A DNA stretch of 43,030 bases from Candidatus Zhuqueibacterota bacterium (GCA_014728085.1 WJMF01000119.1:1-43030), one strand, 5' to 3'. Positions 1,417 to 41,367 are shown, counted from the first letter of the stretch. Made by a program: numbers and translations. Notes: a model not told the origin generated them from the sequence alone.

Positions 1417-1490
1417 GCGCCCGTAGCTCAATTGGATAGAGCTTCTGACTTCGGATCAGAAGGTTGGGGATTCGAGTTCCTCCGGGCGCG
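1417..1490 (+). tRNA. tRNA-Arg (anticodon TCG)
   Basis: A full cloverleaf can be drawn. The acceptor stem GCGCCCG (1417-1423) pairs with CGGGCGC (1483-1489). The D stem is GCTC/GAGC (1426-1429/1439-1442). The anticodon stem TCTGA/TCAGA (1444-1448/1456-1460) encloses loop CTTCGGA, with anticodon TCG at 1451-1453. The T-arm (1466-1482) has loop TTCGAGT. The discriminator base is G1490 and CCA is not encoded. It reads CGA codons, plus other CGN codons depending on modification. A T-run follows at 1492-1497. Confidence 0.95.
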
Positions 1491-1757
1491 CTTTTTTCTA
1501 ACCAATTTTTCCCTCAAGCAGACTAATTTTATTATTGTGCAATATATCTATCTTTTTCCGACCAGACAAATTGCGGCGGATAACACGTTACCTGCAATCT
1601 GATGAATCGGGTCATCCTCAGTTAGGTGGCCAGGCCTGTGGATTATAGCGGATTTTCATTCTCTTAAACGGGTCTTGTCGGAGAAGGTGATGGCTGCAAT
1701 TGAAAAAGACCGGTTGGCGCGACAGGGGTAAAGAGGTCATTTCGGTTTGATTGACTC

Positions 1758-2468
1758 TTAGATCCGGTGGTTTGCAATCAACAGCGAAGACGGATCGAGT
1801 TTGAGCGGCAATTTATCCGGTTTGGTCTCGTCATAACATTTTAACATTACCAGGTCCACATAGTTTTGCAGCGGATTCAGCATAATGATAACGTCCAGCG
1901 CCGTTTTTAGGCGATTCACAGGGGATGGAATTCCATCTTTATCAATATCAAGTTCTTCCCGGTGAAGTGTGGCGGAGAACCACATTTCAACACTGTAGAG
2001 GTTGGCGATATCCCGCCAAGCTTTCATTTTTTTCGGGCTTGCCTGATCGAAATCAAAGCCGTCTATAATCAGGGTGGCCGGATCGAAGGCGGTGTTCCGC
2101 AACAGTCTCGCTATGCTCTCCTTGATTTCTTCATAGCTGATCTGCCGGTTTTTTAGATGGAGAATCAGACGATTGCGAATGATCTCATCAAAAGCGTCTT
2201 GTTTATCTTCGAGCTTGTAGGTTTTTGACAGTTCATCGAAAACCTGTTCATACCAGTTTTCGATATGGTGGGGGTCGTCGGCAAAGGAGAGGTGCAGAAC
2301 TTTTTGTCCGCGCATCATTTTATCGATGGAAATGTGTACCAGACTAGCCGTTTTGCCGACTCCTTTTCTCGCCGTAAACACACCCAACTTTTTTGATCCC
2401 AATCCTCCCTGAAGGCTTTTCTCCAGTACCCGAATCGGGCTTTTCTTGATAATATCTTCTTTCAGCAT
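1758..2468 (-). CDS. P-loop ATPase of unknown role (RecA-like fold)
   Basis: A 236-residue soluble protein. The Walker A motif ARKGVGKTA is at residues 33-41 and a Walker B-like strand ATLIIDGFDF at about 131-140. The C-terminal half has further beta-strands (VEMWFSATLH, LDVIIMLNP), as in RecA/KaiC/RepA-type NTPases. ATG start, with an AAAGGA sequence about 9 nt upstream (read on the minus strand). It lies 86 nt downstream of fusA on the same strand, with no clear terminator between them, so read-through is possible. I do not recognise a named family. A role in regulation or DNA/ATP-dependent switching would be a guess. Confidence 0.75.
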   Translation of the reverse strand: MLKEDIIKKSPIRVLEKSLQGGLGSKKLGVFTARKGVGKTASLVHISIDKMMRGQKVLHLSFADDPHHIENWYEQVFDELSKTYKLEDKQDAFDEIIRNRLILHLKNRQISYEEIKESIARLLRNTAFDPATLIIDGFDFDQASPKKMKAWRDIANLYSVEMWFSATLHREELDIDKDGIPSPVNRLKTALDVIIMLNPLQNYVDLVMLKCYDETKPDKLPLKLDPSSLLIANHRI

Positions 2469-2554
2469 TTCAATATCCTTTAAGAAGCTATATATTCTCA
2501 GTTGTCAGGCTTTATAGAAATATATAAATGTATGGTAAAAGTCCAAACACATTT

Positions 2555-4639
2555 TCACGATTTATTCTTTTCCGCAAATTCTTTTTTCAATTCTTCTGCA
2601 ATGCTTTCCGGCACTTTACCGTATTTTGAAAACTCCATGGTGAATTCGGCCTTGCCCTGGGTGGCAGATCTCAAAACGGTTGAATATCCAAACATCTCAC
2701 TAAGGGGCACTTCTGCTTCCACATGGGTAAACGCATTATCTTCTGTTGCACTTGTAATGATACCACGGCGCTGGTTAAGTGTACTGATAATATTGCCCTG
2801 GAATTCCGATGGGGCTTCCACAGAAACACGCATAATGGGCTCGAGGATGACCGGTTTACAGCGGGAATACCAGTGCCGGAAGGCGTTCCATGACGCTGTT
2901 TGAAAGGCCATATCGGATGAATCCACCGGGTGATAATTGCCATCATTCAGGGTTACCCTGACACCGACGATTGGGAATCCGGTTAGTGTTCCTTTTTGCA
3001 GTGCTGCTTCAATTCCTTTACGGCATGCCGGAATGTATTCCGATGGAATCACACCGCCCTTTATTTCGTCGATGAATTCAAAGGTTCCCTCTCCGTCGCG
3101 AAAGGGCTCGATAATACCGGCGACGCGCGCGTACTGACCGGCACCACCAGTTTGTTTTTTATGAATATAGTCGAACGTTGTTTTTTGAGAAATACTTTCG
3201 CGATAGGCAACCTGTGGTGGTCCCACTTTTAGGTTGACATTGTATTCACGGCGCATGCGTTCGAGATAGACATCCAGATGGAGTTCGCCCATGCCCTTTA
3301 TAATGGTTTCGTGGGTTTCCGGATCGATACCGGATTGAAAAGTGGGATCTTCTTTATTAAACCGATTTAATGCCTTGGCCATATTTTCAGCTGATTTGTT
3401 ATCTGGAGCATTCACCGACAATGAGATGACCGGATCGGGCACATACATAGAGGTCATGGTGATATTCACACTGCCATCGGTAAAAGTATCCCCGGTCGCA
3501 CAATCGACGCCAAACATCGCCACAATTTCTCCGGCCCGGGCTTTTTCGATATCCTGCATTTTATCTGCATGCATACGGATCAGGCGGCCCACCCGTACTT
3601 TTTTGCCGGTTCGCATATTGATAATATCGTCGCCTTTTTGAATCGAGCCCTGATAAATGCGTATATAGGTGAGTTGGCCAAAACGGGTGTCATCCAGCTT
3701 GAAGGCCAGCAATACGGCGGGCTTTTCCGGATTCGATTCCAGAGAGACCTGCATCTCGTCATGGTCCAAATCCAGCCCGGTGTTTTCGATATCATAGGGA
3801 GACGGAAGATATTTATTGACCGCTTCGAGAAGCGGTTGCACACCCTTGTTTTTAAATGCACTCCCGAGAAAGACCGGTGTCATCTGCAGCGACAGCGTTC
3901 CGGCCCTTACTGCTTCATAGACCAAATCTTCGCTGACACGGTCTTCGAGATAAGCCTCGGCCAGGTCGTCGGAATACATTGAGGCCGTATCGAGAAGAAT
4001 GTCTCGTTTTTCCAGCGCATCATTCATACCGTCGGCAGGAATTTCTTTTTCCACCACTTTTTCACCAAACTCACCTTCGAAATAAAACGCTTTCATTTTT
4101 ACCAGATCGATGATGCCCTCAAACTCCGCCTCCTTTCCGATCGGCAACTGCATTAGGATGGCGTTGTGATTGAGTTTGTCCCTGAGTTGTTGAACGACGT
4201 TGAAGGGATTGGCTCCCATTCGGTCCATTTTGTTGATAAAGGCGAGGCGAGGCACTTTATATCGACTCATCTGCCTGTCGACTGTCAGTGATTGAGATTG
4301 TACGCCTCCAACCGCACATAATACCAGAATGGCGCCATCAAGAACGCGCAGCGACCGTTCAACTTCAATCGTAAAGTCGACGTGTCCGGGCGTATCGATA
4401 ATATTGATTTTATGATTTTTCCATTCAACATGCGTTGAGGCGGATTGTATGGTAATTCCGCGTTCTCGTTCCAGCTCCATCGAATCCATGGTGGCACCAA
4501 TACCATCGCGTCCTCTGACTTCGTGAATACGATTGATTCGATTGGTATAAAAGAGAATCCGTTCCGTTAAGGTGGTTTTTCCGGAATCAATATGGGCGCT
4601 AATGCCAATATTTCGCATGGTTTCCAAATATTTACTCAT
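2555..4639 (-). CDS. fusA: Elongation factor G, spd/mitochondrial EFG1-like
   Basis: Translational GTPase that drives ribosomal translocation. From the chosen ATG the protein is 694 residues, the usual EF-G length. An in-frame extension of 23 residues back to 4708 has no family support. GTPase motifs: G1 AHIDSGKTT (15-23), the switch-I segment around GITIQSA (61-67), G3 DTPGH (82-86), G4 NKMD (136-139). Domains II-V follow, ending with a Lys/Glu-rich tail. The [13 protein letters not shown] start and the [17 protein letters not shown] stretch resemble spdEFG1 and mitochondrial EFG1 rather than the AHVDAGKTT of canonical bacterial EF-G. It stands apart from any str operon (no rpsL, rpsG or tuf here), as expected for spd-type EF-Gs. 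An spdEFG2 recycling partner would be expected elsewhere. Confidence 0.93.
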
Positions 4640-6502: not shown

Positions 6503-9500
6503 ATGACACGAAAAATGGTCACACTAGACGGAAATGAAGCTGCTGCTTATGTTGCTCACAAGATCAATGAGGTCATCGCTATTTATCCCATTACGCCCTC
6601 TTCGCCCATGGGAGAATGGTCGGATGCCTTCTCAGCAGCAGGCCAAAAGAATATCTGGGGCACCATACCCCAGGTTACGGAAATGCAAAGTGAGGGTGGG
6701 GCTGCCGGTGCGGTTCACGGCGCCTTGCAGACCGGCGCGCTTACCACAACCTTTACCGCTTCCCAGGGGTTGTTGTTAATGATTCCGAATATGTACAAAA
6801 TCGCCGGCGAATTAACGCCGACGGTATTTCATGTATCAGCAAGAACGGTAGCGACACACGCGCTCTCCATTTTTGGTGATCATAGCGACGTTATGGCCAC
6901 GCGACAAACCGGATTTGCTCTTTTGGCTTCCGCTTCTATTCAGGAGATCATGGATTTTGCCGTAATCGCACAGGCAGCTTCATTAAAAAGCCGTATACCT
7001 TTTGTGCATTTTTTTGATGGATTCCGCTCTTCTCATGAGGTTCAAAAAGTTGAGCAGCTTGAAATGGATGATTTACGCGCCATGATAGAGGATGATGATG
7101 TTTTTGCTCACCGCATGCGCGGATTGTCCCCCGATCATCCGGTTCTTCGCGGAACCGCCCAAAACCCGGATGTTTTTTTCCAGGCCCGGGAAACGGTTAA
7201 TCCTTATTACGACAGGGCCCCCGGGATTGTTCAGGAGATGATGAACCGATTCGCCAAAACCGTCGGCCGGCAGTATAATCTTTTTGATTATGTCGGCGCT
7301 GATGATGCCGACCGTATTATCGTTTTGATGGGCTCTGGTGCGGAAACCGCTCATGAGGCTGCCCAGTATTTGGCTGAAACAGGAGAATCTGTTGGTGTGG
7401 TGAAAGCGCGGCTCTATCGTCCATTCTCTATTGATGCCCTGATGGAGACGTTGCCAAAATCGGTAAAATCTATTGCTGTGCTGGACAGAACGAAAGAGCC
7501 CGGCAGTGTCGGCGAGCCTCTTTATCTGGATGTTGTAAACGCTTTGAATGAAACCCGTGCCGCTGGAAATCTGCCCTTTAAGGAAATGCCCGCTGTTGTT
7601 GGTGGCCGCTACGGTCTCTCCTCCAAGGAGTTTACGCCGGCAATGATCAAAGGTGTTTTTGACGAGCTGAAAAAAAAGACCCCCAAGAATCACTTTACAG
7701 TGGGAATCGAGGATGACAAGACCCAAACCCACATTGGCTACGATCCTGATTTTACCACCGAGAGCGATGATGTGGTTCGTGGCTTGTTTTACGGACTTGG
7801 ATCTGATGGTACTGTTGGCGCCAATAAAAATTCAATCAAGATAATCGGTGAGGAAACTGATAATTATGCCCAGGGGTACTTTGTTTATGATTCGAAAAAA
7901 GCCGGCTCGGTAACGGTTTCACACCTTCGCTTTGGCCCGAGACCGATTCACTCAACCTATCTCATCAACAAAGCCAATTTTATTGCTTGTCATCAGCAGA
8001 TATTTTTAGAACGCTTTAATATGCTCGAAAATGCAGTGGAAGGAGCAACCTTTTTGCTCAATACTCAGGCAGAGAAGGATCATGCCTGGGATTCTCTGCC
8101 AAAAGAGTTCCAGAAAGAGTTGATCGATAAGAAGATGAAGTTTTATGTTATCGATGCCTATGATGTGGCTAAAAAGACCGGAATGGGAGTAAGAATTAAT
8201 ACTATCATGCAGACCTGCTTTTTTGCCATTTCCGGAGTTCTGCCGCGCGATGAAGCGATTCGCTATATTAAAGATGCGATCAAGAAAACCTATGGCAAAA
8301 AAGGCGAGCAGATTGTTCAAAAGAATTATAAAGCCGTTGATCAGGCGCTAGCCAATTTGCATGAAATCGAGGTTCCGGAAAAAGTCACCAGCGACCAATC
8401 AATGCCTGCCATTATTTCCAAGGAAGCGCCGGATTATGTGCAGACAGTGGTTGCCAAAATCATGAAAAACAAAGGAGATGATTTACCGGTTAGTGCATTC
8501 AGTGAAGACGGCACCTTTCCAACCGCCACGACCCAATGGGAAAAGAGAAATGTGGGTTTGGAAATTCCGGTGTGGGATCCCGATGTCTGTATTCAGTGCG
8601 GTAAATGTTCCATGGTTTGTCCACATGCAACCATTCGTCAAAAAGTTTATGATCCCAGGTTTCTCAAAGAGGCGCCGGAAACCTTCAAATCGGCGGATGC
8701 CAGGGGCAAAGATTTTCCCGAGGGGTACAAGTTTACCCTGCAGGTTGCCGCTGAAGATTGTACCGGCTGTGGATTATGCATAGAGGCTTGTCCGGCAAAG
8801 AACAAGGAAGAGCCTGGTAAAAAAGCGATCAATATGGCGCCGCAACCGCCGTTGCGGGAACAAGAGCGAGAAAACTATAAATTTTTCCTGGAAAAGATAC
8901 CAGAGCTCGACCGGACAAAAGTTAAAATTCAAACCGTCAAGGGTTCACAAATGTTGCGGCCGCTGTTTGAATATTCCGGTGCTTGTTCAGGATGTGGTGA
9001 AACGCCATATGTTAAACTCGTTACCCAGCTTTTTGGTGACCGTATGATCATTGCCAATGCTACCGGTTGTTCATCCATTTACGGCGGCAATTTACCGACA
9101 ACCCCCTATTGTGTCGATGAAAATGGACGGGGGCCGGCATGGTCAAATTCTCTTTTTGAGGATAACGCCGAGTTTGGGTTAGGGTTTCGCCTCACATTGG
9201 ATAAACAAATCGAATTCGCCTCAGAGCTTGTACAAGCCCTCTCTTCTCAACTAGGTGACGAGCTGGTTGCGGGGTTGTTGCAGTCGGAACAAGAGAATGA
9301 AGCCGGAATTAATGAACAACGCCAGCGAGTCAAGGCTTTGAAAGAAAAATTAAAAAACATTAAAACAATAGAGGCCCGACAGCTTGAATCAATCTCTGAT
9401 GTACTGGTAAAAAAATCGGTCTGGATAATTGGCGGCGATGGTTGGGCTTATGATATCGGTTTTGGCGGACTCGACCACGTCATGGCCTCGGGACGCAATG

Positions 9501-10066
9501 TGAATGTACTTGTCTTGGATACGGAAGTATATTCCAACACCGGCGGTCAGATGTCAAAGGCCACCCCCCTGGGTGCAGTTGCAAAATTTGCGGCTGCCGG
9601 GAAACCGTTGCCCAAAAAGGATCTCGGCATGATTTTTATGACTTATGGTAACATTTATGTTTCCCGGGTTGCCATGGGATACAACGATATGCAGGTTGTT
9701 CGTGCCATGCTTGAAGCGGAATCCTATGACGGACCAAGTATTGTTATTGCCTATTCTCACTGTATTGCACAGGGAATCAATATGAGTCAGGGACTCGAAC
9801 AGCAAAAACTGGCTGTGCAGAGTGGTCATTATCCATTGTTCCGCTTTGATCCACGAAAGACCGATGAAGGAAAGAATCCACTTAAACTGGATTCAAAAGC
9901 GCCTTCGATTCCTTATCAGGATTATGCCTATAATGAGACCCGTTTCAAAATGTTGACCAAATCCAAACCCGAACGCGCTAAAATGCTCATTGAAAAAGCT
10001 CAGAACGAGGTCCAGTCTAGATGGCATCTCTATCAAGCCTGGGTGGATATGGAATATGGAGAATAA
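6503..10066 (+). CDS. nifJ: Pyruvate:ferredoxin (flavodoxin) oxidoreductase, single-chain
   Basis: Oxidises pyruvate with CoA to acetyl-CoA and CO2, reducing ferredoxin; cytoplasmic, oxygen-sensitive. The 1187 residues carry all domains of homodimeric PFOR in one chain. The N-terminal pyrimidine-binding domain has IYPITPSSPMGEWSDA (about 28-43). Transketolase-C-like and gamma-like domains follow. A 2x[4Fe-4S] ferredoxin domain has CIQCGKCSMVCP starting at 696 and CTGCGLCIEACP at 753. The proximal-cluster/TPP domain has ACSGCGE (about 827-832), ATGCSSIYGG and, at about 976-1030, IGGDGWAYDIGFGG and SNTGGQMSKATP. Length is typical (1170-1200). It points to anaerobic fermentation or ferredoxin-linked metabolism. 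A hairpin follows, then the DHOD-like gene that often accompanies PFOR in anaerobes. Confidence 0.97.
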   Translation: MTRKMVTLDGNEAAAYVAHKINEVIAIYPITPSSPMGEWSDAFSAAGQKNIWGTIPQVTEMQSEGGAAGAVHGALQTGALTTTFTASQGLLLMIPNMYKIAGELTPTVFHVSARTVATHALSIFGDHSDVMATRQTGFALLASASIQEIMDFAVIAQAASLKSRIPFVHFFDGFRSSHEVQKVEQLEMDDLRAMIEDDDVFAHRMRGLSPDHPVLRGTAQNPDVFFQARETVNPYYDRAPGIVQEMMNRFAKTVGRQYNLFDYVGADDADRIIVLMGSGAETAHEAAQYLAETGESVGVVKARLYRPFSIDALMETLPKSVKSIAVLDRTKEPGSVGEPLYLDVVNALNETRAAGNLPFKEMPAVVGGRYGLSSKEFTPAMIKGVFDELKKKTPKNHFTVGIEDDKTQTHIGYDPDFTTESDDVVRGLFYGLGSDGTVGANKNSIKIIGEETDNYAQGYFVYDSKKAGSVTVSHLRFGPRPIHSTYLINKANFIACHQQIFLERFNMLENAVEGATFLLNTQAEKDHAWDSLPKEFQKELIDKKMKFYVIDAYDVAKKTGMGVRINTIMQTCFFAISGVLPRDEAIRYIKDAIKKTYGKKGEQIVQKNYKAVDQALANLHEIEVPEKVTSDQSMPAIISKEAPDYVQTVVAKIMKNKGDDLPVSAFSEDGTFPTATTQWEKRNVGLEIPVWDPDVCIQCGKCSMVCPHATIRQKVYDPRFLKEAPETFKSADARGKDFPEGYKFTLQVAAEDCTGCGLCIEACPAKNKEEPGKKAINMAPQPPLREQERENYKFFLEKIPELDRTKVKIQTVKGSQMLRPLFEYSGACSGCGETPYVKLVTQLFGDRMIIANATGCSSIYGGNLPTTPYCVDENGRGPAWSNSLFEDNAEFGLGFRLTLDKQIEFASELVQALSSQLGDELVAGLLQSEQENEAGINEQRQRVKALKEKLKNIKTIEARQLESISDVLVKKSVWIIGGDGWAYDIGFGGLDHVMASGRNVNVLVLDTEVYSNTGGQMSKATPLGAVAKFAAAGKPLPKKDLGMIFMTYGNIYVSRVAMGYNDMQVVRAMLEAESYDGPSIVIAYSHCIAQGINMSQGLEQQKLAVQSGHYPLFRFDPRKTDEGKNPLKLDSKAPSIPYQDYAYNETRFKMLTKSKPERAKMLIEKAQNEVQSRWHLYQAWVDMEYGE

Positions 10067-26004: not shown

Positions 26005-26914
26005 AAAGACACCTATGTGATGATATTTTTTTACGGTTTTCTGCATATAGCGTAAAGGAGACACCAGCCAAAATAATAACTGCACCGACTATTTTTATCA
26101 ACGACGGTTGTTCACCGAGCAGAAAGACAGCCAGTATTGTGGCTCCAATCGGTTCCCCCAGGGCGACGACGGCAACCGAGGTGGCGCTTAAATATTTTAA
26201 AGCCCAATTTAGGCTGGTGTGTCCTATAATTTGAGGTCCTATTGCTATACCAACAAGATAAAAATATGTTTGTGTGCTAAAATTTATCAAAGAATGTTGT
26301 TTAATCCAAATCAATAATAAAATGGTAATGGCGGCGGCTGAATAGACAATAGCGACATAAGTTATGGTTTCCATATTATCGCGGACGCGTCTGCCGATGA
26401 TGAGATAGCCGGCAGCACAGAGAGCTCCCGCAACCGCCAGGGCGTTACCCAGGAGCTGGGATCCTTTGAGGGAGGCATCATTGGTTCCGATGATTAAAGC
26501 GCCGCACAATGTAATGGTTATACCTAAAAACAATCTCCAATTCATCCTTTCTTTTAAAAGCAGACAACTACCCAGGGCGATAAAAATCGGACTGGTCTGT
26601 ACCAGCACCACGGAGCTGGCAACAGAAGTATAACGCAATGATGTGATCCAGAAGGCAAAGTGCAAAGCTAAAAATATACCGGAAAGGATCATAAGAAACT
26701 TGTGAGGAATTCCTCTCCTTTTCAGTCGTGTGCTAACCCGGGTATAGGAAAGACCAAGATAGAAAACGGATGCTATAGACAGACGGTAGAAAGCAATGAC
26801 CAGAGTAGGGGCGGTACATCTTTTTATCCAGATCGATGCAATTGAAATGGCGATTACACCTATGCTTAAAATCAATACGAGTTTATATGTTCCCGGTTTT
26901 TTCTCCATTGTCAT
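25988..26914 (-). CDS. EamA/DMT-family transporter
   Basis: A 308-residue inner-membrane protein with about ten hydrophobic helices in two repeats. The EamA signatures are visible: SSVVLVQTSPIFIALGSCLLLKERMNW in the first repeat and SATSVAVVALGEPIGATILAVFLLGE in the second. These proteins export or exchange small metabolites (amino acids, nucleotides, drugs); the substrate cannot be read here. Its ATG overlaps the RNase Z stop by 4 bp (ATGA), so the two are translationally coupled. Confidence 0.9.
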   Translation of the reverse strand: MTMEKKPGTYKLVLILSIGVIAISIASIWIKRCTAPTLVIAFYRLSIASVFYLGLSYTRVSTRLKRRGIPHKFLMILSGIFLALHFAFWITSLRYTSVASSVVLVQTSPIFIALGSCLLLKERMNWRLFLGITITLCGALIIGTNDASLKGSQLLGNALAVAGALCAAGYLIIGRRVRDNMETITYVAIVYSAAAITILLLIWIKQHSLINFSTQTYFYLVGIAIGPQIIGHTSLNWALKYLSATSVAVVALGEPIGATILAVFLLGEQPSLIKIVGAVIILAGVSFTLYAENRKKISSHRCLYAKPG

Positions 26915-27846
26915 GTTGTCGAATCCAAAAAAATGCTTTCAAGATCCTGAGGTAAAAAGGAATTTGGGAAAATCTCCCGGGCCTCTCTTAACATGGTTTC
27001 TTCTTCTTCCTCATCATTTCTTTGGCTGATATGGTAAAGATAGAGGACTCCGGCTTGAGCGTTATCTGCGATTTCAGCTGCCTGTTTTGCTGTGCTGTGA
27101 TATGTTTGTAAGGCGCGGTCGTGGTGTTTTTGAGAAAACGTGCTTTCATAAACAAGAACGTTGGCGTGGTCGGCCAGCTTCAGGGCGGCATCACAGGGTC
27201 GTGTATCCGTACAATAGGTGATTATTCGCCCCGGTATTGGCGGTCCCACAATCTGTTCGGGTTGAATTTTTCGGCCATTTTCCAGGGTAACGGCTTTGCC
27301 TTGCTGTAATTTTTGGCGTTGGGGCCCTTGCGGTACATTTAAGGCCTCTGCAGCTTTTTGGTCAAACTTGCCCGGTTTGTCTTCTTCGACAAAACGAAAG
27401 CCATGACATGGCATGCTGTGATCTAAAAGCTTTGTAACGACTGAAAAGTGATCTATTGGCAAAGTATAATCTTCACTGTCTTCAAGCTCTTTTATCATCA
27501 GCGGATATTTGAGCGTATGTGAAGACAGGTGTTGAATAAAGTCTACATAATCCTTAATGCCTTTCGGGCCGATGAGAGTGAGAGGTGCCGTACGGTCTAA
27601 TAATTGTTGTGTGGTGAGTAAACCGTTCAAACCGAATATATGATCCCCGTGAAGATGCGAGATAAAAATATAGCGCACCCGGGATGGAGAAATATTGGCC
27701 TTTTGGAGCTGAAGTTGAACCCCTTCACCGCAATCACACAAGATGGAAAAGCCGTTTTTTTGTATGATCATACTGGGGAGGTTTCTTCTTACAGATGGAA
27801 TAGACGCTGATGTCCCGAGAAAGGTGATTTTCAACTGATTATTCAT
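26911..27846 (-). CDS. rnz: Ribonuclease Z
   Basis: Zinc-dependent endonuclease that trims the 3' trailer of tRNA precursors. The metallo-beta-lactamase signature HLHGDH is at residues 64-69. The N-terminal ITFLGTSASIPSVRRNLP, TYCTDTRPCD and YESTF, and the late YHSTAKQAAEIA and LYHISQR, match the short RNase Z form. At ~311 residues it is normal. Because tRNA-Arg above lacks an encoded CCA, RNase Z processing before CCA addition is expected. I prefer ATG 27846; an upstream TTG at 27858 with AAAGGA very close is the alternative. The ATG start overlaps the plsY end by 8 bp. Confidence 0.93.
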   Translation of the reverse strand: MNNQLKITFLGTSASIPSVRRNLPSMIIQKNGFSILCDCGEGVQLQLQKANISPSRVRYIFISHLHGDHIFGLNGLLTTQQLLDRTAPLTLIGPKGIKDYVDFIQHLSSHTLKYPLMIKELEDSEDYTLPIDHFSVVTKLLDHSMPCHGFRFVEEDKPGKFDQKAAEALNVPQGPQRQKLQQGKAVTLENGRKIQPEQIVGPPIPGRIITYCTDTRPCDAALKLADHANVLVYESTFSQKHHDRALQTYHSTAKQAAEIADNAQAGVLYLYHISQRNDEEEEETMLREAREIFPNSFLPQDLESIFLDSTT

Positions 27847-28483
27847 CTTTTTGTTCAATGTTCCTTTTAAACTTGTTTTCTTCGCCTTTGAGCAGTCTTT
27901 TAATATTCGATCGATGGGTGAAAACGATCAATACAGCAACCAAAAAAGAAAATATATAAAGCGTTTGGGAAATTTCCTGGTTAAGCGCATATCTGAAAAT
28001 AGTGAGAACAAGCGGCAAGGTTACAGCAGCAATCATGGAACCGAGAGAAACGATGCGTGTTAAAAAAAAGACCATGAAAAAGACAGCCAGACAAATTATA
28101 AAGGCCAGGGGATAAAGGGCAACGAGCATTCCTGCCGCCGTTCCGACACCTTTACCGCCGTGAAAGTTGGCGAATACGGTCCAAATGTGACCCAAAATAG
28201 CACAGCAACCGGTGATTAACTGGACCGAACCATAATCGATAAAGGACAAATCGGATGCGATTAATGAAATCCAGAATGTTGCCGCGAAACCTTTGAAAAA
28301 ATCAAAGAGCATGACAAAAAGGCCCGGTTTCCAACCCAAAACGCGGAATACATTTGTTCCACCTGCATTTCCACTTCCATGTTGGCGAATGTCTATCCCT
28401 TTGAGCAGTTTACCAGTGATGATACTGGTCGGGAACGAACCGGCCAAATAGCTCAACAAAATGACTGATACCAATTGAAACAT
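27839..28483 (-). CDS. plsY: Acyl-phosphate:glycerol-3-phosphate acyltransferase
   Basis: Integral membrane enzyme making lysophosphatidate from acyl-phosphate and glycerol-3-phosphate. The three family motifs are present: SYLAGSFPTS with GSGNAGGTNVFRVLG, then FHGGKGVGTAAG, and SLGSMIAAVTLPL. The 214 residues form about seven hydrophobic helices, the standard size. The gene begins 15 nt after the fatty-acid-kinase-like fusion gene, whose predicted product (acyl-phosphate) is the PlsY substrate. plsX is not in the window. Confidence 0.96.
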   Translation of the reverse strand: MFQLVSVILLSYLAGSFPTSIITGKLLKGIDIRQHGSGNAGGTNVFRVLGWKPGLFVMLFDFFKGFAATFWISLIASDLSFIDYGSVQLITGCCAILGHIWTVFANFHGGKGVGTAAGMLVALYPLAFIICLAVFFMVFFLTRIVSLGSMIAAVTLPLVLTIFRYALNQEISQTLYIFSFLVAVLIVFTHRSNIKRLLKGEENKFKRNIEQKDE

Positions 28484-28497
28484 AAAGACCTCGTTTA

Positions 28498-30291
28498 TTA
28501 TTCAATTCTATCGATAACGGCAATCGCTACAGCCCCGATTCCGGCATAGACGCCGAGAGCAGGTGATGCTTTCAGGATATGAATGTCATTTTTTTTCAGC
28601 AAGTCGCGGATATGCGTACGATAGGCATTTGCTCTGTTCCTGGCATTGGCGTGCATAATTCGGAAAACGGGGTTTTTCAGCGTTTCTGCATAATCCATGG
28701 CCAGAGAGAGTGTTTTTTTAAATACATTTTTTTTACCAAATGTCTTTGCACAGGGAACGATTTTTCCGTCGGAATCACTTGTTAAAACGGGTTTGATATT
28801 CAGCAGGGTTGCCAATATACCCTGGGGTTTACCCAGCCTGCCGCTGCGAATGATATACTTTAACGACGGCAGCGCGATAAACAATCTAACCGTTGCAATC
28901 GCCTTGTCCAGATTTTCTTTAATATCTTTCACAGTCAGTCCTTTTTCGATTAACAAGGCCGCCTCTTCAACAACAAGCCCCAGGGCACCGGAGAGGGATT
29001 TGCTGTCGATAAAATGAACCTTGTTTTCATAGATTTTGTTCTTTACTGAAATCATACCGCTTTGTAGTGTTCCGCTTAAACGCCCGGAGAGATGAATGGA
29101 TAGTGCCGATGTATAGGATTTAAATACATTGTCATAAATATTTTGGTAGAATGCCGGTGATGGTTGTGAGGTGGAAATTTTTGCTTTTGAATGTTTCAGA
29201 AGACTATAAAAGCGTTCCTGAGTCAGTTCTGTTTTATCCTTGTAGCTTTTTTCTCCGACCTGGATGATGACCGGCACAAAATGAATGTTATATTTTTTTG
29301 CTGTTTCTTCGGCAATATCGCATGTTGTGTCTGTCACCAAGGCGATATGATCTGTTGATGTTTTCAGGTGGTTGTGCTGCGATTTCATGTCGTCTACTTT
29401 TTTCCTGGAAATTGTAGCTTGTTCAGAAGCCAGGGAGAAAACCTTTTCGGGCTCGTTGGTGTGGATATGTATCCTGGCTTTTTGGTTTGATCCGACGATG
29501 ATCAGTGAATCTCCGATAACGTCCAATTTTTTTCGGAGGAGATCCCGGTTAATGTTTTGTCCTTCCAGCAGACATTCCGTACAGTATCTGAAAGTAATTT
29601 TATGGTCATTTTGCAGAGCTTTGATTTTTCGGGTAACGCGTGATTTTGCCCGATAGGCTGCGATTTTTCCGGTTTCAATAAAATCAGTGACACCCTCAAG
29701 AATATTGACGAATCCCTGCGCCCCGGCATCGACAACACCTGCTTTTGAAAGGATCTGCAGTTTTTTCGGTGTGTCAGCCAAGGATTCTTTTGCCCTGTAC
29801 AAGGCGTCACGGAGCAGATCGCCAAAATCGGTTGTGTTTTTGGCGCGCTCATTCAGGTGGTGTGCCCAATCCCGCATTACAGTGAGAATGGTACCTTCTT
29901 GTGGATGCACAATGGCTTCTCTGGACCGTTCGACGGCGTTGTTCATGGCCTGAGCAAAAGAGCGGGTCGTCAATCGTACTTTACCTTTTGTCGCTTCTGC
30001 GAGTCCGAGAAAAAATTGAGCCAGGATGACTCCGGAATTACCACGCGCTCCATTTAGGGCGGAATCAGCGATGGAAAGGCTTACCGTTTCTATAGAGGTA
30101 TCATGACAATTTTTCGCATCTCTGGCGATATGCGTCATGGTTGATGCCATGTTTGTTCCGGTGTCTCCGTCCGCTACAGGAAATACATTAATGCTGTTCA
30201 GCTTTTCCCGCTCCATATGAATTCGCTGCGCGGAAGCTATAATTGAACGCTTGAGCCGAAGGCCATCCAGGTATTTAATTTTATTTTTCAT
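28498..30291 (-). CDS. FakA-like kinase (DAK2) fused to DegV/FakB fatty-acid-binding domain
   Basis: A 597-residue cytoplasmic fusion. Residues ~1-205 form a DhaL/DAK2 kinase domain with NVFPVADGDTGTNM (35-48) and GARGNSG, which bind Mg and ATP. Residues ~225-305 match the FakA middle domain (KITFRYCTECLLE, GDSLIIVG, HIHTNEP). Residues ~315-597 are a full DegV domain (HIALVTDTTCD, STSQPSP, LSGRLSGTLQSG, SGRLGKPQG), the FakB fold that holds a fatty acid. In Firmicutes these are separate FakA and FakB proteins that phosphorylate exogenous fatty acids. The fusion would combine kinase and acyl carrier in one chain. DegV here replaces the FakA C-terminal domain. plsY lies 15 nt downstream. Confidence 0.92.
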   Translation of the reverse strand: MKNKIKYLDGLRLKRSIIASAQRIHMEREKLNSINVFPVADGDTGTNMASTMTHIARDAKNCHDTSIETVSLSIADSALNGARGNSGVILAQFFLGLAEATKGKVRLTTRSFAQAMNNAVERSREAIVHPQEGTILTVMRDWAHHLNERAKNTTDFGDLLRDALYRAKESLADTPKKLQILSKAGVVDAGAQGFVNILEGVTDFIETGKIAAYRAKSRVTRKIKALQNDHKITFRYCTECLLEGQNINRDLLRKKLDVIGDSLIIVGSNQKARIHIHTNEPEKVFSLASEQATISRKKVDDMKSQHNHLKTSTDHIALVTDTTCDIAEETAKKYNIHFVPVIIQVGEKSYKDKTELTQERFYSLLKHSKAKISTSQPSPAFYQNIYDNVFKSYTSALSIHLSGRLSGTLQSGMISVKNKIYENKVHFIDSKSLSGALGLVVEEAALLIEKGLTVKDIKENLDKAIATVRLFIALPSLKYIIRSGRLGKPQGILATLLNIKPVLTSDSDGKIVPCAKTFGKKNVFKKTLSLAMDYAETLKNPVFRIMHANARNRANAYRTHIRDLLKKNDIHILKASPALGVYAGIGAVAIAVIDRIE

Positions 30292-30355: not shown

Positions 30356-31270
30356 TTATTGCAAAATCTGCAACACTTTTTGTTTTATTTGGTCGGCAAA
30401 AATACTGTTCAGGGCTAGCGTGAATTGTGTTTCGAGATAGCCAAGAGGCGTACCCATATCCAGCGATTTTCCGGAAATCAATGCCCCAATTGCACTTTCG
30501 CGTTCACAAAGAACAGCCTGGGCATTCGTGAGTTGAATCTCTCCTTTTTCCCGAATATTATTTTCAATAAATTTTCCCAATACGGTAAAAATCGAAGGTG
30601 CAAAGACATAGATGCCGAAAAAGGATAAATATTTTCCATGTGGTAACTCTTTGGAAGATAGATATTTTTGGGCGGTTTTTATATCCGGTTTTTCAATGAT
30701 ATTTTCAAGTTGGAACAGGGGCGGGGTTTCATGAAATTTTGGTCCGCTGACAACGCCATACAAATGGAGTTGTTCCTCCGGGGTTTCCTTGACGGCGAAA
30801 ATTGATTTTTGATAGCGATTAAAAATATCGACAACTTGAGAAATACATGATCTTGAACCGGCGGATATATATATATGATCGCCCAAAAGAAGCAGGAAAG
30901 GAGAATCCCCCACCCACTCTCTGGCGCAATACACAGCGTGACCATAACCTTCCGGAGAAGGTTGGGGTATATAGGTGATGCGATCTTTAAGCTTGGCGAG
31001 GACATTGGATTGTTGATGCAAGCCCGGATTTTTGCTCTCATTTTCCAGGGCCTGAAAGTGCAAAGCGAATTTTTTTTCTTCACCTGGCTGGACAACGATT
31101 GCAATTTCTTCTATCCCCGCTTCAAGTGCTTGTTCTGCGATGATTTGAATGGTTGGCTTGGTAATACCATCCATATCAACAAGCGGAAACAGTTCTTTTT
31201 GTATCGCATTGGTGGCCGGATATTGACGTGTTCCTTTCCCGGCTGCTGTAATGACGGCTTTTGTTAACAT
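30356..31270 (-). CDS. galU: UTP--glucose-1-phosphate uridylyltransferase
   Basis: Nucleotidyltransferase that makes UDP-glucose from UTP and glucose-1-phosphate. The 304 residues contain the nucleotide-binding AVITAAGKGTRQYPATNAIQKE (Lys25), IVVQPGEE, PQPSPEGYGHAVYCAREWVG, LLLLGDHIY, and ENIIEKPD with the sugar-phosphate-binding Lys. Length and layout are those of bacterial GalU. ATG start. It lies 64 nt upstream of the FakA-DegV gene on the same strand and may be co-transcribed. UDP-glucose could serve the GT2 further right. Confidence 0.93.
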   Translation of the reverse strand: MLTKAVITAAGKGTRQYPATNAIQKELFPLVDMDGITKPTIQIIAEQALEAGIEEIAIVVQPGEEKKFALHFQALENESKNPGLHQQSNVLAKLKDRITYIPQPSPEGYGHAVYCAREWVGDSPFLLLLGDHIYISAGSRSCISQVVDIFNRYQKSIFAVKETPEEQLHLYGVVSGPKFHETPPLFQLENIIEKPDIKTAQKYLSSKELPHGKYLSFFGIYVFAPSIFTVLGKFIENNIREKGEIQLTNAQAVLCERESAIGALISGKSLDMGTPLGYLETQFTLALNSIFADQIKQKVLQILQ

Positions 31271-38643: not shown

Positions 38644-41367
38644 ATGTCTGGTGCCGGCAGCAATAACCTGGATGGATTAATTAAGCGCAATGGCTATTTG
38701 GTTCCCTTTCGTGCCCAAAAGATCGAAAACGCGATCAAGCGGGCATTTCAGGCGGTTAGCCGGGAAACAGGGGAAACCTTTGAGAGAGGCATTTATAAAA
38801 AACTGGCATCTGCTGTTGTTGATCAGCTAAATGATCCATTTAGTGAATATTATGTTCAGGAAGATGAAAGGGGCAGGCGCACCCCTAAAATCGAAGATGT
38901 GCAGGATTTGGTAGAAATTGTATTATCGGAAAACAATTTTCCTGTGGTGGTGGCTGCTTACAAGCGTTATCGAAAGCAGCGTGAATTGTCACGAAGAAGA
39001 ATTCGTGTTCGCTCATCAAACAGCAATATGTCGAAAGATCCCACCGATGCAAATCTGCTGCTTGTCGAATCTATTACCGACAACATTACAACCATCTGGG
39101 ATCGGGGAAGAATAATCAAGCAACTTATCGAGTCTGTAGGATTAGCTTCCGAAGACGCCTCTGAGATTGCAAAGTCTGTAGAGAATATCGTCATTGGCAG
39201 CAAGGTGACGACGGTAAACACGGCATTGGTTCGTGAGTTGGTGAATAATGAATTGTCTTCGCGAGGTTTTCAGGAGCAGTTGCACGATTTGGGGATGTAT
39301 GGAATCCCAAAACAGTATATTGAAGCTTTGATGAACACAAAATCGTCGGAAAATAGCAATATTGTAAACAATAATCCTGAGGCAGTGAATTTAGGGGTTG
39401 CCGAGCTTGTGTTAAAGCAATGGGCATTGGATACCATTTTTTCGCCCAGCGTCAAGCGAGCCCATGATACCGGCATTGTTCATATTCATGATTTGGGATA
39501 TCCTCATCGAGTCTATTGTTCATCCCATTCAGTAGAGTATGTGAAAAAGTATGGCTTGCAGCGTTTGCTCAATCTAAACACCGAATCCAAACCGGCCAGA
39601 AGTGCTTCCGTATTAACCGGTCATCTTAATACATTTTTAGCGACCATGCAGGCAAATTATGCCGGCGCCCTGGGCATTGCTTACATTAATGTTCTCTATG
39701 CGCCTCTTTTGGCAGGAATGAATGCCGTGGAACTCAAACAGATCGCTCAGGAGCTTATTTTTAATGGTTCGCAAAACGCCTTTTCCCGCGGAGGGCAGAC
39801 TTTATTCCTCGATTTTAATATCCATACCGGTGTGCCATCTTATATGAAAAATGTACCCGCCATCGGTCCGGCCGGAAAATATATGCTCCAAACCGGAGAT
39901 GGAAATATCATACCGCTGAAAGAGGTTTTACGGGATGAATGCGATGAGAACGGCTATCATTACATGAATCTCTATGTCGACGCTCCGGATTCCAGTCCGA
40001 GGTTGGTGTTGAAGGAATATGGCGATCCTCAAAAGGGTCTCTGTTATGATGAAAACGTTCAGAAGGATCTGGAAGCACGTGGTGAAAAAATTCTAACCTA
40101 TGGACAATTTCAAAAAGAGGCACAGGAATTTGCGCTAGCGCTTTTAACGGTCTGGGAGGAAGGTGATAAACAGGGACGTGTTTTTGAATTTCCCAAATGC
40201 GATTTTCACATCAACGAAGAGTCTTTTGAAGATGAAAACCAACTGCGCATCGTAGAACGGGCCTGTCAACTTGCCAGCAAAAACGGCTCTACTTATTTTA
40301 TATATGATCGGGATGAAGTAACCCTTTCGGCCTGTTGTCGTCTGCGAACCACCATTACCGATAATCGTATGCTCAAACATCCGGAATCCATGCGATTTTG
40401 CGGATTCCAAAACGTGACGGTAAATATCCCACAGGCGGCATACAAAAGCGCGCGAAACGGCAAAAAGAATCTGGAGGGATTGCTACAGGAGATTGATGCG
40501 GCGATGGACATCTGCGCTGAAGCACACCTGCAAAAGCGGAGAGTTACTCGCGAAATGATGTCCGAACGGGGCCGTCCGCTGTATCAAATCGGTCAGCCCT
40601 CATGTGACGGCTTGCCTTATGTAGACCTCGACAAATGCACCTATATTATCGGATTGATTGGCATTAACGATGCTGTTCAGTATCTAACGGGTGAAGAACT
40701 GCATGAAAGCAAGGCCGCCCAGGAGCTGGGATTAAAAATTGTTGCCCATATGTTCTTGCGCGCTAAAAAGTTATCGCGCAAGCATAATATCAAGCTAAGC
40801 CTTGAAGAATCGCCGGCTGAAAGCGCGGCCCGGCGCCTGGCAAAAACCGATCTGATCTATTTTCCAGAGGAGGCATCCAAAGTTGTCAAAGGGAGTATTA
40901 AAGAGGATACGGTTTTTTATACCAACTCTGTCCATTTAACCGCTGATTCTGATGTGTCCCTGGTTAGCCGAATCCGTGAGCAGTCTAAATACCACAGCAT
41001 GATAGAGTCTGGTGCTATTATTCATGCTTTTGTCGGAGAAGAGCAACCATCACCCAAGTCCATTTTTAAATTGGTTAAAGAGACATTTTACCGTACCCAG
41101 TGCGCTCAATTGACGATATCTCCCGAGTTCACCTATTGTAAAGATTGCCTGCATCAGGCAAGAGGCCTGCAAAGCGAATGTGTCCGATGCGGCTCTGAAC
41201 AGGTCTATGGTGAAACCCGGGTTGTCGGCTATTTCAGCAAGATTGAAAATTGGAATCGTTCAAAACAATTCGGCGAGCTCCTTGCTCGTCAACATGGAAA
41301 CTACACCATCGAAACAGCAGAGGATGACCAGACCGCCAACACCCTGGTCACCGCAAGTGAGGCTTGA
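38644..41367 (+). CDS. nrdD: Anaerobic ribonucleoside-triphosphate reductase, class III
   Basis: Glycyl-radical enzyme that reduces NTPs to dNTPs without oxygen. An N-terminal ATP-cone (about 10-105, IKRNGYLVPFRAQKIENAI) gives allosteric control. The barrel follows, with GYPHRVYCSSHSVEY (Cys292), the ACCRLRTT pair (Cys564/565) and RFCGFQN (Cys586) as possible active-site thiols. A C-terminal zinc site uses Cys832, 835, 846 and 849. The radical Gly862 lies in RVVGYF. At 907 residues it is longer than E. coli NrdD (~710), and 45 residues follow the radical Gly. ATG with GAGGAG upstream. First gene of nrdD-redoxin-nrdG, probably NrdR-controlled. Confidence 0.95.
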   Translation: MSGAGSNNLDGLIKRNGYLVPFRAQKIENAIKRAFQAVSRETGETFERGIYKKLASAVVDQLNDPFSEYYVQEDERGRRTPKIEDVQDLVEIVLSENNFPVVVAAYKRYRKQRELSRRRIRVRSSNSNMSKDPTDANLLLVESITDNITTIWDRGRIIKQLIESVGLASEDASEIAKSVENIVIGSKVTTVNTALVRELVNNELSSRGFQEQLHDLGMYGIPKQYIEALMNTKSSENSNIVNNNPEAVNLGVAELVLKQWALDTIFSPSVKRAHDTGIVHIHDLGYPHRVYCSSHSVEYVKKYGLQRLLNLNTESKPARSASVLTGHLNTFLATMQANYAGALGIAYINVLYAPLLAGMNAVELKQIAQELIFNGSQNAFSRGGQTLFLDFNIHTGVPSYMKNVPAIGPAGKYMLQTGDGNIIPLKEVLRDECDENGYHYMNLYVDAPDSSPRLVLKEYGDPQKGLCYDENVQKDLEARGEKILTYGQFQKEAQEFALALLTVWEEGDKQGRVFEFPKCDFHINEESFEDENQLRIVERACQLASKNGSTYFIYDRDEVTLSACCRLRTTITDNRMLKHPESMRFCGFQNVTVNIPQAAYKSARNGKKNLEGLLQEIDAAMDICAEAHLQKRRVTREMMSERGRPLYQIGQPSCDGLPYVDLDKCTYIIGLIGINDAVQYLTGEELHESKAAQELGLKIVAHMFLRAKKLSRKHNIKLSLEESPAESAARRLAKTDLIYFPEEASKVVKGSIKEDTVFYTNSVHLTADSDVSLVSRIREQSKYHSMIESGAIIHAFVGEEQPSPKSIFKLVKETFYRTQCAQLTISPEFTYCKDCLHQARGLQSECVRCGSEQVYGETRVVGYFSKIENWNRSKQFGELLARQHGNYTIETAEDDQTANTLVTASEA

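Follow-up and report, generated by a model that had tools for sequence, protein, structure and literature searches.

A 597-residue protein encoded in a 43,030-nucleotide stretch of DNA from a Candidatus Zhuqueibacterota bacterium (hereafter the window) is probably a single-chain fatty-acid kinase, in which the N-terminal and middle domains of FakA are joined to their own FakB-type carrier. The case for its activity is built on conserved residues, predicted fold and gene order; from these we infer the enzymatic activity, the substrate, membrane exchange, action within a dimer or in trans, and handover of the product to PlsY. The features concerned, with the evidence for each in brackets, are as follows.

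28498..30291, minus strand: FakA(N+middle)-DegV fusion, 597 aa, proposed single-chain fatty-acid kinase (Pfam/NCBIfam, residues, AlphaFold2, Foldseek)
29665..30291, minus strand: Dak2/DhaL-type ATP-binding kinase domain, residues ~1-209 (invariant ligands, FakA_N superposition)
29356..29664, minus strand: FakA middle (dimer/zinc) domain and linker, residues ~210-312 (Pfam FakA-like_M, C237/H275/H277)
28498..29355, minus strand: DegV/FakB domain, residues ~313-597 (T374/S406/R485 kept, fold match)
27839..28483, minus strand: plsY, glycerol-3-phosphate acyltransferase using acyl-phosphate, 214 aa (TIGR00023)
26911..27858, minus strand: ribonuclease Z, outside the proposed function (TIGR02651 above cut-off)
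30356..31270, minus strand: GalU-like nucleotidyltransferase, 64 nt upstream of the fusion (Pfam/NCBIfam, below the GalU cut-off)

Domains and conserved residues of the fusion

Translation of the fusion frame gives no internal stops. Pfam places Dak2 at residues 38-202 (E 2e-39), FakA-like_M (PF21645) at 234-308 (E 6e-22) and DegV (PF02645) at 316-593 (E 5e-71), all scoring far above the cut-offs, and the DegV part also passes TIGR00762. FakA-like_C (PF13684), the FakB-docking domain, has no Pfam match in the fusion or elsewhere in its genome. The protein falls under the NCBIfam cut-offs for YloV (TIGR03599, 317.5 versus 396.1 bits) and FakA (NF038248, 196.1 versus 975 bits), and dihydroxyacetone kinase models score far below cut-off. 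An earlier note on this DNA had described a kinase and a FakB/DegV domain in one chain, with DegV in the place of the FakA C-terminal domain. The reading frame, coordinates and domain order bear this out, as do the presence of DegV at 316-593 and the missing FakA_C match.

Residue roles were taken from work on the S. aureus proteins (PMC9136124, PMC8892158, PMC11617999), and conservation was counted among 30 class relatives and 70 wide relatives, with the window protein included in each set. The ATP/Mg ligands N32, D38, D40, T41, N82 and D185 of S. aureus FakA correspond to N35, D41, D43, T44, N85 and D188 of the fusion, which are invariant in both sets (30/30 class, 70/70 wide). In the middle domain, S. 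aureus C240, H282 and H284 are matched by C237, H275 and H277; the first two are likewise invariant (30/30 and 70/70), while H277 is found in 30/30 and 69/70. This Cys-His-His set has been assigned to zinc binding and dimer stability, or to catalysis, in papers that disagree (PMC9136124, PMC11617999).

An AlphaFold2 model of the single chain, built with a 70-sequence alignment, has a mean pLDDT of 91.8 and a pTM of 0.71, and the latter value means that it fixes the single domains and not their packing, nor, hence, the geometry of phosphotransfer. Residues 213-220, the linker between the kinase and middle domains, are disordered in the model, like the S. aureus linker. The top Foldseek match by E-value is an S. 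suis FakA-FakB2 entry, on which rigid superposition of the whole chain fails (rmsd ~25 Å). Taken separately, the kinase part superposes within 0.8-1.6 Å on FakA_N of S. aureus; for the DegV part, the match to FakB1 has a target-normalised TM-score of 0.87-0.89, and its fold is also that of T. thermophilus DegV and of fatty-acid-binding DegVs.

Thr61, Ser93 and Arg170 of FakB2 align with T374, S406 and R485 of the fusion, positions that we take to line the fatty-acid site on the basis of the FakB1 network and of what is known of FakB2. Every aligned sequence has S406 and R485, and position 374 is Thr or Ser. Retention of the lipid-binding residues, a check set by the earlier note, is seen at these three but not at the position of His266, part of the FakB2 carboxylate network. 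This is Tyr582 in the window copy (codon 28546-28548) and His in 28/30 class and 50/70 wide relatives. A carboxylate network around the fatty acid has been described for FakB1 (PMC8892158).

Arg205 of S. aureus FakB docks on Glu548 of FakA_C and also binds the membrane (PMC9136124); it has been termed completely conserved among FakBs (PMC8892158). The corresponding residue of the window fusion is F518, as placed by alignments to 2dt8, 3fys, 1pzx and 2g7z and by an alignment that also includes 23 separate DegVs. A pairing of Arg202 with K516 in the first alignment, to FakB2 (4x9x), is doubtful given a one-residue loop difference. We compared 70 fused DegV domains with 23 separate DegVs taken from ten fusion-carrying genomes. 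Arg occupies the position in 21 of the 22 separate DegVs with a residue there, against 1/69 fused domains (46 Phe, 10 Leu, 7 Ile), a contrast with Fisher p ~2e-18 when the sequences are treated as independent; in the class set the count is 3/30. The fused domains form one clade, and the loss of Arg may therefore be a single ancestral change that was later retained. Replacement of Arg205 is, on these alignments, a family signature and not the outcome of many independent events. It is as expected if the tether substitutes for docking on the absent FakA_C, and could weaken membrane docking too. Hence, the identification of the DegV domain with FakB stands for most of the lipid site, but the domain is not a plain FakB, with its docking arginine changed and, in this copy, Tyr582.

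Genomic context and distribution

As the earlier note had it, plsY starts 15 nt past the last base of the fusion, which corresponds to a 14-nt gap, and GAGG lies 5 nt ahead of its ATG. The gene passes the TIGR00023 equivalog cut-off (184.2 versus 137.2 bits) and is single-copy, with no other PF02660 match in the genome. It shares 20 nt with the ribonuclease Z gene, which in turn shares 4 nt with a DMT transporter gene, and the latter overlaps with a GAF/HD-GYP ORF; the genes from the fusion through this ORF are therefore probably carried on one transcript. The nucleotidyltransferase at 30356-31270 scores 174 bits against a GalU cut-off of 326.8. Genes for pyruvate:ferredoxin oxidoreductase and anaerobic ribonucleotide reductase, at 6503-10066 and 38644-41367 of the window, suggest an anaerobic lifestyle.

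Sixty relatives were searched, including the window genome (G000; 5.19 Mb, 97.9% complete). The fusion is matched in 40/60 and without a match in 20/60, so its function is dispensable. At the evaluable class loci, plsY is the next gene on the same strand in 27/29, with fusion identities of ~42-52% and a spacing that ranges from a 4-nt overlap to a 280-nt gap. An order kept in this proportion is not due to chance, and the idea that the adjacency is unique to the window is rejected. A wider scan of named genomes confirmed 546 of 588 candidate stretches as relatives, and the best 80 of at least 546 were used. Among these, plsY is next in 31/75 loci: 17/19 in Fidelibacterota, 2/2 in Calditrichota, 3/4 in KSB1-titled genomes and 2/2 in Acidobacteriota, but only 1/13 in Bacteroidota and 0/5 in Bacillota. 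The fusion-plsY order, which the earlier note proposed to look for in relatives, is thus upheld within the class but mostly absent beyond a few phyla, and since it occurs in some phyla only, it is a conserved neighbourhood there and not a property of the fusion itself. Within 1.5 kb on each side, ribonuclease Z accompanies the fusion at 12/30 class loci and the GalU-like gene at 7/30. Each is found at 1/80 among the best 80 of at least 546, a set partly overlapping the class set, and these neighbours mainly mark closer relatives.

The best 80 of at least 546 loci include KSB1, Calditrichota, Fidelibacterota (Neomarinimicrobiota), Bacteroidota, Chlorobiota, Aminicenantes, Cloacimonadota, Atribacterota, Thermotogota, Bacillota and Desulfovibrionaceae. 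Most wider loci are metagenome-assembled, so single placements (e.g. 'Gammaproteobacteria') may be binning errors. The fusion coexists with a canonical-length FakA frame (546-561 aa) in Trichococcus and in one Halanaerobiales, Kosmotogaceae, Thermotogales and Tissierellaceae genome. It is also found in two plasmid-filed Listeria records, as proteins of 577-588 aa named 'DegV family protein'. No second Fak was found in the window genome, where the DegV of the fusion is the only one. Neither a canonical FakA nor a separate FakB was found in the 60 class genomes, where PF13684 and DegV matches all lie in fusions or broken copies, so that no carrier other than the fused one was found. In two drafts no Dak2 besides that of the fusion was found, yet separate DegV matches occur, nine (some partial) in an Acholeplasmataceae draft (G064, L102) and two in a Clostridia draft (G062, L094); the fusion kinase there might serve separate carriers.

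In quick, unrooted trees, the fused DegV domains split from 21 separate DegVs with an SH-aLRT of 94, and the fused kinase halves split from 5 canonical FakAs with a branch support of 100. With comparison sets this small and trees unrooted, a single origin of the fusion is favoured, not proven.

A few copies look altered or broken. At ~1445-2986 (minus strand) of G043 contig 24 (L034), an open frame has lost almost the entire middle domain (residues ~216-291 of the window protein). Its kinase motifs are changed (DKD for DGD, GAQGYSG for GARGNSG) and plsY is still next; this copy seems to be decaying or altered. In G037 (L033) and G058 (L035), of the same family (f8), the fusion is frame-shifted, in G058 also with a deletion, through either decay or draft-assembly error.

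Proposed function and alternative readings

We propose that the DegV domain would pick up free fatty acid from the membrane and offer the carboxylate to the ATP/Mg site of the kinase, in its own chain or in a dimer partner. The acyl-phosphate would be released to the membrane and added by PlsY to glycerol-3-phosphate, while part might be converted to acyl-ACP through PlsX. The tether would substitute for docking between FakA_C and FakB, which would account for the absence of FakA_C and the loss of Arg205. It would also provide a high local carrier concentration, comparable to the conditions under which S. aureus FakA_NL, devoid of FakA_C, is active at high FakB (PMC9136124). Direct passing of acyl-phosphate from the fusion to PlsY, i.e. 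channelling, is plausible. The fatty acid itself could come from either external uptake or the recycling of internal free fatty acid. The genome has 7 matches to FadL-like outer-membrane proteins (5 above cut-off) and 13 AMP-binding enzymes above the Pfam cut-off, which could let fatty acid in from outside and activate it by other routes, respectively.

The earlier note went further: it suggested a channelled route bypassing PlsX and asked whether relatives lack plsX. Such a route, with the fusion as the main acyl-phosphate source, is highly improbable. The fusion does adjoin the only plsY, and in G008, a relative that carries the fusion, PlsX has no match, alone among the 60; its draft is ~90% complete, however, so this absence is probably a gap. 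In the window genome, plsX is intact on contig 244, apart from the fusion contig, in a plsX-fabH-fabD-fabG-acpP cluster (fab names assigned from translated ORFs). It is present in 59/60 relatives, whereas 20/60 have no fusion match. These observations support neither the bypass nor a lack of plsX in relatives, and the fusion would therefore be an additional acyl-phosphate source. As PlsY is single-copy, the PlsX and fusion routes meet there. The fusion would thus serve as a second, salvage or recycling feed beside PlsX, not as its substitute. That the salvaged acid would mainly become acyl-ACP via reversed PlsX, for elongation or for PlsC and not for PlsY directly, we regard as very unlikely. 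PlsX is at hand in the genome and some of the acyl-phosphate that Fak makes in Firmicutes goes this way (PMC10146087), but the long-conserved neighbour of the fusion is plsY, and plsX sits in the fab cluster of a different contig.

Two further readings concern what the fused DegV domain does. Dak2-type kinases act on other substrates too, and the substrate here might be a DegV-bound lipid or carboxylic acid other than a long-chain fatty acid, with the plsY neighbourhood an operon convenience. Tyr582 changes the carboxylate site in the window copy, and outside a few phyla most carriers of the fusion have no adjacent plsY. We nonetheless consider this reading improbable: the remaining site residues are those of fatty-acid-binding FakB/DegV proteins, the DegV part finds its best fold matches among fatty-acid-binding DegV/FakB structures, and acyl-phosphate is what the long-conserved neighbour PlsY uses. 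More generally, several points count against our main proposal: Tyr582, the possibly weaker membrane docking after loss of Arg205, the missing plsY adjacency in most Bacteroidota and Bacillota, the 20/60 relatives with no match, and the 13 AMP-binding enzymes as alternative activators of fatty acids. It is extremely unlikely that the fused DegV is instead a replacement docking platform for separate FakBs and not a carrier. FakA_C is itself distantly FakB-like (PMC9136124), and the Acholeplasmataceae and Clostridia drafts combine separate DegVs with a fusion that is the sole Dak2 found. Against this, no separate DegV was found in the window genome or the 60 class genomes, R485 and S406 are kept in the fused domain, and the domain aligns across two FakB segments that are missing from FakA_C (PMC9136124).

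Relation to known systems

With the FakA/FakB pair of Firmicutes (S. aureus; S. suis FakA-FakB2, 7w7h), the fusion shares the kinase, the zinc/dimer middle domain and the FakB fold, together with the ATP/Mg ligands, the Cys-His-His set, most residues of the fatty-acid site and the equivalent of catalytic Arg173. It differs in being one chain without FakA_C, in the replaced Arg205 docking residue, and in its one fixed carrier, where FakA works with several FakBs. Many of the phyla that carry the fusion are Gram-negative. Fak, in contrast, has been described as a Gram-positive strategy (PMC10146087). Dihydroxyacetone kinase (DhaL/DhaK/DhaM) has the DhaL-type ATP-binding domain in common with the fusion, whose carrier is DegV and not DhaK, and which has a FakA middle domain besides. 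We found no description of a FakA-DegV or DAK2-DegV fusion in the open-access literature, and one elsewhere is possible; the fusion is apparently an undescribed, conserved arrangement of known parts, present in many bacteria that are little studied. More tentatively, and with considerable doubt, it could represent a separate, old branch of fatty-acid kinases, widespread in Gram-negative and candidate phyla, fused once, with FakA_C and the docking arginine lost, and handing acyl-phosphate directly to PlsY in some phyla.

How FakA and FakB assemble is disputed: the acid bound to FakB would be phosphorylated by FakA_N (S. aureus), or the acid would move into a site between the FakA N and C domains (S. 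suis). No structure of an active FakA-FakB complex exists, and transfer across the dimer has been left open (PMC11617999). A natural one-chain enzyme that lacks FakA_C makes this dispute directly testable. Under the more tentative reading of an old, separate branch, such a FakA_C-free covalent complex would show that phosphate is transferred to the acid while the carrier holds it, without any active site in FakA_C. Our main proposal would extend Fak-type scavenging from Gram-positives to many Gram-negative phyla. It would also suggest a role for the many proteins whose only name at present is 'DegV family protein'. One of these, Listeria innocua WP_207577344.1 (577 aa), has the domain order of the fusion and Phe at the Arg205 position; it differs in its 32% identity to the window fusion, in an annotation by family only, and in a DUF1295 neighbour in place of plsY. 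At both Listeria loci (L181 and L182), the DUF1295 gene comes directly after the fusion, where plsY would stand.
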